Below are positions 1,686 to 15,876 of a DNA stretch of 25,081 nt, one piece after another. The translations under genes and the position numbers were made by a program. Every line of letters starts with the position of its first letter. The stretch's first letter is position 1. This stretch comes from a virus, in the IMG/VR virus record IMGVR_UViG_3300030107_003679, positions 1 through 25,081 of that record; one strand, written 5' to 3'. The notes beneath the pieces were generated by a model. It had not been told where the DNA came from, searched no databases, and worked only from the letters and a program-made list of their open reading frames with translations.

Positions 1686-1976
1686 ATGCAAAACGAGCTA
1701 GATGTTTTAAATAATATGGCGGTACCAGCAGCGGCAGAACCTGGTGAAGCTGACTTACAAAATGTGCTAGCTAGCTTATCACCTGAAGAGGTTGCTGAAG
1801 CTCGCAAAAGCATGATTGAAATTAGAAAGGCTTTAGAAGAGATGATCGCTCAAGGAGCAACACAAGAACAAATAGAACAAATGTTAGCCGAAATAGGGCT
1901 AACGCTTGATCAACTAGAATACGCCGAACAAGTGTTAGGATTAGCAGAACAAAATGATGTGGGTATTGAAATCTGA
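1686..1976 (+). CDS. Hypothetical acidic helical protein, 96 aa
   Basis: No family recognised. The product is predicted almost wholly helical from composition, rich in Glu, Gln, Ala and Leu, with a probable amphipathic coiled-coil stretch from about residue 25 to 85 and no cysteines or membrane segments. It opens the packaging operon and its TGA overlaps the ATG of the next gene (1974-1978), implying translational coupling. By position it could be the missing small terminase or a partner of the 626-residue protein that follows, but I see no DNA-binding helix-turn-helix to support a TerS call. No clear ribosome binding site precedes the ATG at 1686. Confidence 0.65.
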   Translation: MQNELDVLNNMAVPAAAEPGEADLQNVLASLSPEEVAEARKSMIEIRKALEEMIAQGATQEQIEQMLAEIGLTLDQLEYAEQVLGLAEQNDVGIEI

Positions 1977-3856
1977 TGGGTTTTTTACGTAATTTATTTC
2001 CTGGTATGGTTAGAGGCCTAATGAATCGAGGTATGGCTAGACGTCCTGGTCTCGGTGGATTTTTAGGGCCAATTTTTCGTAATCGTCGAGGTTTATTCAA
2101 TCCTAGTGGTCGTTTAGGTTTTAGTAGGGGTTTCATGTCGAATCCTGTAGATCTCAATAATATTAATTTCCTGAATAGGTTAAGACAGTCCCCTACACCT
2201 TTACTACCAGGTTTGATGCCAGGTATGGGCGACGATCAGTTAACAGATGAGCCTTTGAATCCTTTTCCTGATATGCCTCAGATGCCAGCAATAGAGACAA
2301 GCGATATGCAGATGTTTATTAATCCGCTGACCGGTCAACAAGAAACAGGTTCTTCTACAAGAATGCGGTTTTTGAACGATCTAAAAGCTTATTTTGATGC
2401 TAACCCAGGCGCACAAGATTATTACAATCAAAGTCAAGGACAAACTTCTAGAGCTCCGATGCCTGTACCTACACCAATATCTCCTATACCAGGTAGTGGT
2501 TTTACAAGTGGTTCAATACCTATACCTCCTGGTGGTTTTGATAGAGGGCCTGCGCCTATAAGAGTAGGCGGACCGGTTTTACCAGTTGTTCCACCAACTA
2601 GAACTACTATACCAGGCGTAGGTCCAGCTCCTGAGCCTGCTCCTATAGATATGGATTTATTTTTAGGTGACACTAGGAATCCTGTAGTACCAGGTGTCAA
2701 TCCACCTCGTTCAGATATTATGCCACCAGGTGAATTACCAAAACAACCGCCTGTATTAGGACCAGCACCAAGTATGCCACCAAGGGGTTCAGCTCCGTTG
2801 CCAAAACCTGTGTTTGGCTCAGGTATGGGTATGCCTAATTATCTATCTCCTAATCAACCAGCTAAAACAGTGGTTGGCATGTATTCTACTGGTGGTAATG
2901 TTACAGCAACACCTAAAAAAAAAGTAGGTATTAAAGATTTAGTAAAAAGTGCAGCTCGAGGCGCTTACAAAGCCAAAACCGCACCCCTACAATTAGCCTC
3001 TAGTATTAGTAATTTGGTTGCACCAAATTCTGCTTTAAGTGCAGGGTTAGGTAAACTAGCTACCCCTTTCGCTAAAGGTGGTGATGCTAACTCTTCTGAC
3101 TTTCCTGATTTAAGTGGTGATGGCAAAATTACCCAAAAAGATATTTTGATGGGTAGAGGTGTAATTAAAATGCAAGAAGGTGGTGATCCTGCTAAAAAAT
3201 CATTTACAGATTATCAGCCTGAAGGTTTGCTTAAAGGCACTATCTTTGACTATATCCCTGATGGTTATCAGGTAAGTGCATTCTTACAAGATAAATTTAG
3301 TAGACCTAGACCAATGCAGCCAAATACCATTATCCCTGGTGTACCAAAAGGTGTTACAAAAGAAGAAAACTTTGATGCTGCATTTAGTAAAGCTAGAAAA
3401 CTTTTAGGTCCAGGAAAGACATTTATGTACAAAATGGAAGGTGATACTGACTTTAAAACATACACTACTGATCTCAAAGAGGAAGTTTCAAGAAATGAGA
3501 TAGGTATGGCTAGTGGTGGAATTATTGACCCTACGTTATCTTCAAGAACACAAGCTGATTTAGATCGCCTCTTAGGTGTCGAAAATGCTGTTAAGGCTAA
3601 ATCTTTAATAGACATGACTATGCCTTCAGGTGTTGATGCCGATATGTTGAACTATCAAAATACTTTAAACGCTTTGCGAGAGCTACAGGAATCCCTACCG
3701 GAAAATCAAAAACCATTTTTCAAAGCTGCTGTTCAAGAAATGTTGCAACAACCCGACATGACAGTTACTAACAAATTTATGATGCAGGGCATGCTGAACG
3801 AAATGGATAACCCAAATATGGAAAAAAAAAACCTGATGTCACTATCAGGGATGTAA
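1976..3856 (+). CDS. Pro/Gly/Met-rich phage protein, zero-frame product (626 aa)
   Basis: Function unknown. Residues 1-60 are basic and Gly/Arg/Phe-rich. Residues 80-290 are proline-rich and probably disordered. Around 378-389 there is a calcium-loop motif, DLSGDGKITQKD, that fits dockerin/EF-hand loops (acidic or Ser ligands at loop positions 1, 3, 5 and 12, Gly at 6). 'KGG', 'EGG' and 'SGG' motifs are scattered around it. The last 100 residues look helical. The zero frame ends only eight codons after an A10 run at 3822-3831, while the -1 frame stays open to 4221 and would give a product of about 748 residues. Lying between a small helical protein and TerL, it could be a structural or packaging accessory protein; this is inference. 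Confidence 0.75.
   Translation: MGFLRNLFPGMVRGLMNRGMARRPGLGGFLGPIFRNRRGLFNPSGRLGFSRGFMSNPVDLNNINFLNRLRQSPTPLLPGLMPGMGDDQLTDEPLNPFPDMPQMPAIETSDMQMFINPLTGQQETGSSTRMRFLNDLKAYFDANPGAQDYYNQSQGQTSRAPMPVPTPISPIPGSGFTSGSIPIPPGGFDRGPAPIRVGGPVLPVVPPTRTTIPGVGPAPEPAPIDMDLFLGDTRNPVVPGVNPPRSDIMPPGELPKQPPVLGPAPSMPPRGSAPLPKPVFGSGMGMPNYLSPNQPAKTVVGMYSTGGNVTATPKKKVGIKDLVKSAARGAYKAKTAPLQLASSISNLVAPNSALSAGLGKLATPFAKGGDANSSDFPDLSGDGKITQKDILMGRGVIKMQEGGDPAKKSFTDYQPEGLLKGTIFDYIPDGYQVSAFLQDKFSRPRPMQPNTIIPGVPKGVTKEENFDAAFSKARKLLGPGKTFMYKMEGDTDFKTYTTDLKEEVSRNEIGMASGGIIDPTLSSRTQADLDRLLGVENAVKAKSLIDMTMPSGVDADMLNYQNTLNALRELQESLPENQKPFFKAAVQEMLQQPDMTVTNKFMMQGMLNEMDNPNMEKKNLMSLSGM
3822..3849 (+). promoter_or_regulatory. 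Putative -1 frameshift site: A10 run plus hairpin
   Basis: Ten consecutive A residues (3822-3831) include the slippery heptamer A AAA AAA in the zero frame. Directly after comes an inverted repeat, CCTGAT (3832-3837) and ATCAGG (3844-3849), with a possible G-U closing pair and a four-base loop. The zero frame stops at 3854-3856. The -1 frame is open from 3811 to 4221. Either ribosomal -1 slippage or polymerase slippage adding one A would join them; a homopolymer sequencing error is the plain alternative. Confidence 0.6.
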
Positions 3857-4221
3857 CCGATTTATTTTTCGATCCGAGTGATCCACTAGACTATTTAGCT
3901 TTAAGTCTTGGACCTTTTGCTCCCTTAGCCAAAATTAAAAAAATAGATAAAGGTCAAGAACTTTTAGATAAAGTTTTTGGACAAAAGAAAGCCTTACAAA
4001 AAAAATTGGGGCCTGAAGGCTTTAAAAAACATCAAAAACTAAAAGATCTAAAGACTGAAAAATTTGCCGAGACACAAAAATTAGAGGATGAAATCAATAG
4101 ATTATCTGATGCCACTGGTAAGTCCGCAGTAAGAAAAAGGAATAGTTTGATAGCACGACGACAAACTATAGAAGGTGAAATTATGGATATAGATAAAGAA
4201 ATCTCAGAATTAACTAAATAA
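3829..4221 (+). CDS. C-terminal extension of the 1976 gene in the -1 frame
   Basis: Joined to the upstream frame at the A10 run, this reads on from KKKPDVTIRDVTDLFFDPSD for about 130 residues and ends in a Lys/Glu-rich coiled coil (roughly the last 70 residues). The open frame begins at 3811, after a TAA at 3808-3810, and has no ATG until about 4182, so it is not a free-standing gene with a normal start; the only near alternative is a TTG at 4006. Its stop overlaps the ATG of the terminase gene (TAATG, 4219-4223), the same coupling seen at most junctions here. That is what one expects if this is the true end of the upstream gene. Confidence 0.65.
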   Translation, partial: KPDVTIRDVTDLFFDPSDPLDYLALSLGPFAPLAKIKKIDKGQELLDKVFGQKKALQKKLGPEGFKKHQKLKDLKTEKFAETQKLEDEINRLSDATGKSAVRKRNSLIARRQTIEGEIMDIDKEISELTK

Positions 4222-5681
4222 TGCAATACGACAGCTTATCAGATGCCGAGCTTAAAGAGGCGCTGCTGCTTAAAGAGCGACTTAATTTACTAAATAAACA
4301 AGAAAGTTGTCAAAACAGCTTTATGGAGTTTATTGATCATATTTGGCCTGAATTTATTTGTGGTCGCCATCATAAAATATTTGCTCAAAAACTGGAAGAT
4401 ATTGCTAACGGCAAAATTAATCGTTTGATTGTTAACATGCCACCTAGACACACTAAGTCTGAGTTTGCGTCCACTTACTTTCCTGCTTGGATTATGGGTA
4501 AGTTTCCTAATAAAAAAATTATGCAAACCACTCATACTGGTGAGCTTGCTGTACGTTTCGGTCGTAAAGTTCGTAACATGATGGATTCTAACGAATACAA
4601 AAACGTTTTTCCTGATGTGACTCTATCAGCTGATTCAAAGTCTGCTGGCCGTTGGGAAACGAACAAAGGGGGCGAGTATTTCGCTGCTGGTGTAGGTGGA
4701 GCTATTACAGGTCGAGGTGCGGATCTTTTGATAATAGATGATCCCCATTCTGAACAAGATGCTTTATCCGCTTCAGCTATGGAGTCTTGTTGGGAATGGT
4801 ACACTTCTGGACCACGACAACGTTTGCAACCAAAAGGGGCAATCGTTTTGGTTATGACTAGATGGAACAATATTGATTTAACCCAAAAGTTGTTAGACGC
4901 TCAAAAAGAACCGCTAGCCGATCAGTGGGATATTGTAGAGTTCCCTGCTATTTTTCCTGAAAGTGAAAATCCTTTGTGGCCTGAGTTTTGGTCAAAAGAA
5001 GAACTATTAGGGGTTAAGGCTTCATTACCTAGTATCAAATGGAACGCCCAGTGGATGCAAACCCCAACTGCTGAAGAGGGTTCAATCATAAAAAGAGAGT
5101 GGTGGAACGAATGGCAACACGATACTTTGCCTGGTGTCCAATATATAATACAATCTTATGATACGGCCTTTTCAAAAAAACAGTCCGCCGACTTCAGTGC
5201 CATTTCTACTTGGGGTGTGTTTAGGCCATCTGATGATGCCCCTGATTCAATTATACTTTTGGATTGTCAAAAAGGGCGTTGGGATTTCCCTGATCTTAAA
5301 AAAATAGCGCAAGAAGAATACCGATATTGGGATCCGGATATGGTTTTAATTGAAGCAAAAGCTTCAGGTACACCCTTGACACATGAACTTAGAAGGTTAG
5401 GGATACCGGTCGTTAATTATTCACCCACTAGAGGACACGATAAACACTCCCGTATGCATGCGGTAGCGCCGATGTTTGAGTCTGGTTTGGTTTGGGCACC
5501 CACTAAAGGTTTTGCTGAAGAGATGATTGAGGAGTGTGCCGCTTTTCCGTTTGGTGCACACGATGATTTGTGTGATACAATGACTCAAGCTTTGATGCGC
5601 TTCCGTGAAGGTGGTTTGATTTCTTTGGGATCAGATTATGAAGATGAAGACAAAGCCCCAATAAAAAGAGTATATTATTAG
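4221..5681 (+). CDS. terL: Phage terminase large subunit (TerL)
   Basis: The DNA-packaging motor ATPase and nuclease, acting at the portal vertex of the prohead. The 486 residues are normal for the family. The N-terminal ATPase has a Walker A-like PPRHTKS at residues 74-80 and a Walker B LLIIDD at 169-174 followed by P-H-S-E. A TRW coupling-type motif is near 213-215. The C-terminal RNase H-like nuclease shows the expected acidic residues: D314 in SYDTAFS, E378 in VLIEAK, and D448/D449/D452 in AHDDLCD. It appears complete. The ATG overlaps the stop of the preceding -1 frame, so translation is probably coupled. No recognisable small terminase sits beside it. Confidence 0.95.
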   Translation: MQYDSLSDAELKEALLLKERLNLLNKQESCQNSFMEFIDHIWPEFICGRHHKIFAQKLEDIANGKINRLIVNMPPRHTKSEFASTYFPAWIMGKFPNKKIMQTTHTGELAVRFGRKVRNMMDSNEYKNVFPDVTLSADSKSAGRWETNKGGEYFAAGVGGAITGRGADLLIIDDPHSEQDALSASAMESCWEWYTSGPRQRLQPKGAIVLVMTRWNNIDLTQKLLDAQKEPLADQWDIVEFPAIFPESENPLWPEFWSKEELLGVKASLPSIKWNAQWMQTPTAEEGSIIKREWWNEWQHDTLPGVQYIIQSYDTAFSKKQSADFSAISTWGVFRPSDDAPDSIILLDCQKGRWDFPDLKKIAQEEYRYWDPDMVLIEAKASGTPLTHELRRLGIPVVNYSPTRGHDKHSRMHAVAPMFESGLVWAPTKGFAEEMIEECAAFPFGAHDDLCDTMTQALMRFREGGLISLGSDYEDEDKAPIKRVYY

Positions 5682-5682
5682 C

Positions 5683-5856
5683 ATGTTACAATTTTATTTG
5701 ACGGAATATATTAAAGATGGTGTGACTCAAGATGGGCCTTTAATATGTGCTAACAATCTGAATGAGGCTAACGCCCAAGCACAAGATTTAAATTTAAAGT
5801 TAGTGGGCGAATTATTTCCGCTTATTGATTTATTAGAAGTGGAGCGTGTACACTAA
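5683..5856 (+). CDS. Small hypothetical protein, 57 aa, between terL and portal
   Basis: A short ORF exactly fills the space between terL and the portal gene: its ATG is one base after the TerL stop and its TAA overlaps the portal ATG (5854-5858). The product begins MLQFYLTEYIKDGVTQDGPL, with an acidic C-terminal half and no membrane segment. Exact tiling between two certain genes is the main evidence that it is real. Function unknown. Small proteins in this slot are common in podophage genomes, but I do not recognise a family. Confidence 0.7.
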   Translation: MLQFYLTEYIKDGVTQDGPLICANNLNEANAQAQDLNLKLVGELFPLIDLLEVERVH

Positions 5857-15627: not shown

Positions 15628-15876
15628 ATGCCAGGTCATTACAAAAAAAGCAAAAACGGTAGCATGATGAAAAAATCTAAGGGCGGAAAAATTATGAAGA
15701 AGTCCAAAGGTGGTATGATGATGAAGAAATCGAAAGGTGGCTCCATCATGAAAAAATCAAAAGGCGGCATGATGATGAAAAAGTCCAAGGGTGGCAGAAT
15801 CATGAAAAAGTCTAAAGGTGGTTCAATCATGAAAGCTGGAAATGCAGCTAGAAGAAGAGCAAGATATAGTAGATAG
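15628..15876 (+). CDS. MKKSKGG tandem-repeat protein, 82 aa
   Basis: Almost the whole protein consists of a nine-residue unit, MKKSKGG followed by two variable residues (KI, MM, SI, MM, RI, SI), in six full copies from residue 14 to 67, preceded by a degenerate copy (KKSKNGSM) and followed by an Arg-rich tail (RRRARYSR). About half of the residues are Lys, Arg or Met. No family function is known to me. The composition resembles histone H1-like or protamine-like DNA-condensing proteins, and each repeat offers lysines to the nearby SET enzyme (inference). The AGGAG site supports the ATG. Its stop overlaps the GTG of the next gene. Confidence 0.7.
   Translation: MPGHYKKSKNGSMMKKSKGGKIMKKSKGGMMMKKSKGGSIMKKSKGGMMMKKSKGGRIMKKSKGGSIMKAGNAARRRARYSR
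15667..15828 (+). repeat. Six 27-bp in-frame tandem repeats
   Basis: Units start at 15667, 15694, 15721, 15748, 15775 and 15802. They differ mostly at synonymous third positions while the MKKSKGG amino acids stay fixed, which indicates selection on the protein rather than recent slippage. This is a coding repeat, not CRISPR. Confidence 0.9.

Follow-up and report, generated by a model that had tools for sequence, protein, structure and literature searches.

The window, by which we mean the whole stretch of 25,081 nucleotides that was analysed, is part of a 26,021-base IMG/VR virus record (IMGVR_UViG_3300030107_003679, L001 in our comparisons). Its gene order around the locus is a 96-aa ORF, the zero-frame gene, terL and the portal gene (Table 1); the portal protein matches the SU10 portal family, and matches to GroES, the major head protein and a tail fibre follow. 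Because terL, portal, GroES, major head and tail fibre are all matched, the region belongs to the late genes of a tailed phage, which is probably a podovirus. The zero-frame protein carries the motif FPDLSGDGKITQKDI from residue 376 and has the C terminus ..MEKKNLMSLSGM directly before its stop codon. Looking at the sequence, we found the A10 run, the end of the zero frame and the −1 frame, open from 3811 to 4221, where the original prediction had placed them, and the same was true of the TAATG junction with terL. The −1 frame had been said to lack an ATG until about 4182; the first one is indeed at 4183, though a TTG occurs at 4006. The fused product counted from the coordinates has 748 residues, in agreement with the predicted sizes of 626 and about 748.

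Table 1. Features around the A10 run, in positions of the window.
Feature	Position	Strand	Remarks
96-aa gene upstream	1686..1976	+	Looks homologous (by eye) to the zero-frame partner in six other contigs
Zero-frame gene	1976..3856	+	626 aa, Pro/Gly/Met-rich; short product
A10 slippery run	3822..3831	+	A AAA AAA at 3823-3829 in zero-frame register
−1 frame extension	3829..4221	+	130 residues counted from the run's last Lys; DVTDLFFDPSDPLDY motif, then helical hairpin/coiled coil
Hairpin directly 3' of the A10 run	3832..3849	+	Arms 3832-3837 / 3844-3849
+1-frame stop TGA	3834..3836	+	Ends 5 nt past the run; third frame closed
Zero-frame stop TAA	3854..3856	+	25 nt after the A10 run
TAATG, extension stop/terL start overlap	4219..4223	+	Without Shine-Dalgarno-like word just upstream
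terL, terminase large subunit	4221..5681	+	Adjoins the extension; PHROG 38 match

In a structural model of the extension, helices span residues 41–93 and 100–131 (mean pLDDT 73.3), which fits the coiled coil proposed originally, and the first 41 residues, including the conserved motif, are below pLDDT 50. None of 162 matches in a PDB fold search with this model reached E 0.001, and Pfam and PHROG comparisons of both frames gave sub-threshold or coiled-coil-like matches only. The long form would have a C-terminal domain made of DxTDxxFDPxxPxDY and a coiled coil. From its place among late genes, the extension may act in the virion or in its assembly.

We then looked at relatives of this locus. 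Queries of IMG/VR used the upstream protein, TerL, the extension itself and two alignments of it, and one DNA pattern; three of these searches are represented by the best 80 of 379, of 82 and of 116 confirmed loci. The extension domain gave 207 matches in 277 sequences, corresponding to at least 81 distinct copies. Of the 81 listed, 42 show the frameshift arrangement, in which the upstream frame ends soon after an A9 or A10 run and the domain lies in the −1 frame; 26 have the domain within one continuous frame and 10 have it as a stand-alone domain with its own ATG, while L129, L041 and L160 are assigned to no class (L200, a separate upstream piece of L160's contig, carries the slip site). Automatic classing had first put 47 copies in the frameshift class, 24 in the fused class and 10 in neither; doubtful rows were then inspected, whereupon L114, L235 and L237 (stand-alone), L135, L147, L261 and L268 (fused) and L041 (contig end) left the frameshift class and L071, L151 and L156 joined it. 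The 42 frameshift copies are related to one another and so are not 42 independent events; they group into 7 clusters at 50% identity, 14 at 70% and 27 at 90%. The zero-frame proteins are poorly conserved, with a mean column identity of 33%. An exact scan for the site of the second clade (clade 2) found 45 contigs.

At all 42 frameshift sites among the matches listed, the slippery site is in the zero-frame register and the frames overlap; the run is A9 in 11 and A10 in 31 of them. At these same sites the zero-frame stop lies 4–41 nt and the +1-frame stop 5–18 nt after the run. Closure of the +1 frame was considered as proof of polymerase slippage, an argument weakened by the fraction of comparable positions, 0.518, that have a stop within 18 nt. 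The run begins at codon base 2 in the window's group and in the second clade and at base 1 in the L012 and L013 groups, and in L071, which has A9 among A10 relatives, the −1 relation is still kept. Run and split frame are kept in L003, L004, L012 and 30 second-clade copies, and also in L010, L011, L013, L014, L088, L090, L092 and L258, where a −1-frame stop is found just 5' of the run. No close relative was seen with an intact single frame and no run; where the run is missing, the domain either continues the upstream frame or is a gene by itself. Within 300 nt upstream, A9 or longer was found in none of the 39 other copies listed, two of which (L129 and L041) have less than 100 nt upstream.

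Differences between near relatives in the −1 frame are mostly at third codon positions, which argues for selection on the encoded protein. L012 and L090 differ by 17/8/53 at the three codon positions over 140 codons, with 0/0/12 in the first 40 codons, and the window and L003 by 10/4/19 over 132 codons. Distant pairs are less clear, L116 and L133 differing by 54/39/52 without third-position excess. Judged by these counts, the −1 frame is evolving as a protein from the run onward. We also counted A runs away from the slip site in 155 frames (196,473 nt, slip site left out), the expectation coming from synonymous permutation. Runs of A9 or longer were seen 2 times (8.7 expected), A8 9 times (23.4 expected), A7 75 times (86.2 expected) and A6 234 times (202.3 expected). 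For A7 the ratio of seen to expected was 0.40 and 0.71 in the two heptamer-bearing registers compared with 1.42 in the third. By their lengths, the two off-site runs of A9 or longer are probably the A9 at window positions 2915–2923 and its A10 counterpart at the same place in L003. This second run of the zero-frame gene is read in frame, and both other frames stop soon after it (by eye), so that a slip there would only lead to truncation.

Altogether, 42 distinct copies with the same split and the depletion of A9 or longer runs elsewhere support the −1 frameshift reading of the original prediction. We conclude that the conserved A9/A10 run is very probably the site of a programmed −1 frameshift, so that one gene would yield two products, in the window a 626-aa protein that ends with the upstream frame and a 748-aa protein that runs on into the extension. 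The slip would occur on the homopolymer itself: either RNA polymerase inserts an extra A or the ribosome moves back by one base. Both machines are possible, and the sequences make us lean slightly to the polymerase, because the run is never shorter than nine, registers differ and adjacent hairpins are not conserved; the register-dependent A7 depletion and the stronger folding 3' of the site point to ribosomes. Programmed transcriptional slippage calls for an A or T homopolymer at least about nine long, and each of the 42 sites listed has one. When 8 records were scanned with PF00940 for a phage RNA polymerase, neither the records nor the controls gave a match, so that the outcome carries no information.

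A −1 frameshift made entirely by ribosomes, at A AAA AAA or A AAA AAC and with help from downstream RNA structure, competes only with the polymerase half of our reading, and we rate it at somewhat under an even chance. Ribosomal slips at such heptamers operate in E. coli dnaX and in phage tail chaperones. An A9 or A10 run contains a heptamer in every register, and A7 is depleted off the site only in heptamer-bearing registers, as a ribosomal slip would have it; ribosomes, however, need only about 7 A, and no listed site has fewer than nine. Folding was assessed by z-scores from a home-made dinucleotide shuffle. Over 60 nt around the motif, clade-2 sites (mean z −1.92, n=30) fold better than copies without the frameshift (0.05, n=37; p ~1e-7, kinship ignored), and 3' of the site the mean z was −1.61 for 32 sites and −0.20 for 128 control stretches, kinship again ignored. 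The structure alignments, named A5, A6 and A7, covered 20, 8 and 17 of the 42 sites, respectively. A predicted structure of 20 pairs, with no double changes, is common to eight sites of one subclade; minus its last helix it showed, over 17 clade-2 rows, 14 cells changed on both sides compared with 7.7 in shuffles, which also favours a ribosomal slip. In contrast, RNAalifold gave no common structure on 20 clade-2 sites of the 42, the predicted folds being specific to lineages, and an alternative stem showed no double changes. The position of the stems argues in the same direction: in clade 2 they start at least 14 nt past the run, and in the window and the L012 group 0–2 nt past the slip heptamer, compared with a usual slip-site-to-stem distance of 5–9 nt. 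The hairpin of the original prediction does exist in the window, 2 nt past the zero-frame heptamer 3823–3829, with a predicted −8.0 kcal/mol for the fold of the 24 nt after the run. A role as a general stimulator is not supported: the same hairpin was found only in the window, L002 and L003, and a different adjacent hairpin in L012, L090 and L092. An adjacent hairpin common to the family was thus rejected.

That the extension is instead a separate gene with an internal start and no fusion is improbable. The domain can live alone, as the stand-alone copies indicate, but in 40 of the 42 frameshift copies listed (all except L071 and L156) the −1 frame offers neither ATG nor GTG nor TTG ahead of the domain, and the sequence is conserved as protein from the run itself. 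Long A runs are error-prone and our sequences are metagenome contigs, but a homopolymer sequencing or assembly error, or a decayed pseudogene, is hardly tenable for a family in which 42 distinct sequences, their runs of two lengths and their flanks not alike, share the out-of-frame relation, the −1 frame is under selection and the 39 other copies listed have no such run; the frameshift is almost certainly real.

Copies in a single frame bear on the long product of the programmed frameshift. In L147 and its kin, one frame contains an FPDLxGDGK motif and then the DxTD motif (18–55 and 63–93, respectively, in L147). This module order is the one expected of the fused product, and it therefore supports, and does not prove, the long product as a working form; the matched parts of L147 are short (39 and 31 residues). 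Among other continuous-frame copies, L109, L112 and L117 have the domain in, or apparently in, a large protein, which in L109 and L117 resembles one sited between extension and terL in other phages. In six of the 45 contigs found by the exact scan (L179, L180, L184, L193, L196 and L197) the cassette lies directly before terL; its extension is another one, 120 to 636 codons long, and the upstream partner looks by eye like a homologue of the 96-aa protein of the window. In each of the 15 pairs compared, the third codon position is the most variable. As read from these contigs, the cassette would be modular: it goes with either of two upstream genes and with extensions of at least two kinds.

The neighbour 3' of the extension is terL or a large protein preceding terL. 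At 41 of the 42 sites listed, the start codon of this long frame lies −14 to +12 nt from the extension stop, 21 of those sites having a stop/start overlap of the TAATG or TGATG type, and a Shine-Dalgarno-like word was found at 4 of the 41 starts. The same test on the window was positive at 12 of 27 listed starts, so that the absence of such a word at terL is not unusual; it is therefore only as a hypothesis that we propose that frameshifting may also gate the next gene, terL in the window. Translation through the extension would then help to deliver ribosomes to that gene. The most complete scheme is a polymerase-slippage switch that would put a coiled-coil tail on a share of the upstream protein and bring ribosomes to the abutting next gene, so that a single homopolymer would fix the proportion between two virion or packaging products as well as the amount of packaging motor. 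We offer it tentatively, and taken as a whole it is rather unlikely.

Programmed frameshifts of tailed phages are known mainly from tail chaperones and a few capsid genes. The present gene does not fit a tail assembly chaperone: it does not lie between tail tube and tape-measure genes, and neither frame had a Pfam match above cut-off or a PHROG chaperone match. In the portion of PMC5009743 available, the lambda gpG/gpGT chaperones are sited between tail tube and tape measure, whereas the window's gene is just before terL and others are before the large protein preceding terL. The frameshifts of phage A2 head and virion proteins, from the same portion, are likewise recoding in structural or packaging genes, with different genes and sites, and Streptomyces phage Hau3 has a bypass within the terminase itself, whereas here the gene before terL is concerned. 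The excerpt of the PRFect paper (PMC10885494) gives known cases as mainly tail chaperones (2397 of 2476 joined genes). The transcriptional slippage of Thermus dnaX, Shigella mxiE and IS elements described in PMC1088944 is alike in that a run of about nine A (A9/T9) is soon followed by stops in the two remaining frames; the Thermus dnaX run is A9. The long product would need the slip here, as it does in mxiE, whereas in Thermus dnaX the slip shortens the product. The same paper also reports selection against A/T runs as evident from nine in a large share of genomes. The present case differs in that it is a gene of a tailed DNA phage and slippage is proposed from sequence.

The TerL proteins of the pelagiphages HTVC023P and HTVC027P, of 023Pt_psg01 and of DSL-LC04 are 59–63% identical to that of the window. 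In phage records, tblastn gave no match for the window's zero-frame protein (E up to 0.01), for the L012 and L101 extensions (E up to 1) or for the L101 zero-frame protein; in the same records, three pelagiphages were weakly matched by the start of the fused protein of L147. A scan of genome contigs with alignment A3 found no relative. Literature searches on pelagiphage frameshifts, terminase-linked programmed frameshifts and related subjects showed no report of this gene among the entries listed, and the word frameshift is absent from the main text, in the portion available, of PMC9599517 on HTVC023P-type phages. What is new is the place of this conserved, putatively programmed frameshift, beside terL and across a sizeable uncultured group of marine phages. 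Plain gene calling would shorten the protein and lose most of the extension in these genomes, and the natural in-frame and stand-alone versions of the domain offer a comparative system for the extended product and for the choice between polymerase and ribosome.

Some minor observations were made on the way. Stand-alone extension genes with their own ATG occur in L114, L115, L118, L119, L121, L159 and L161; in L121 and L161 the gene is directly before terL, has no upstream partner and follows an AT-rich stretch with TTTTTTGCAAAA-like words. Positions 15628–15876 of the window encode a small protein built of MKKSKGG repeat units. L192, an unrelated phage, has the same A10 cassette on its reverse strand; in the reversed locus the site lies near 5742 and immediately precedes a tape-measure-like gene. 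This is the classical place of the chaperone, and the arrangement resembles an ordinary tail assembly chaperone frameshift (genes named by eye).
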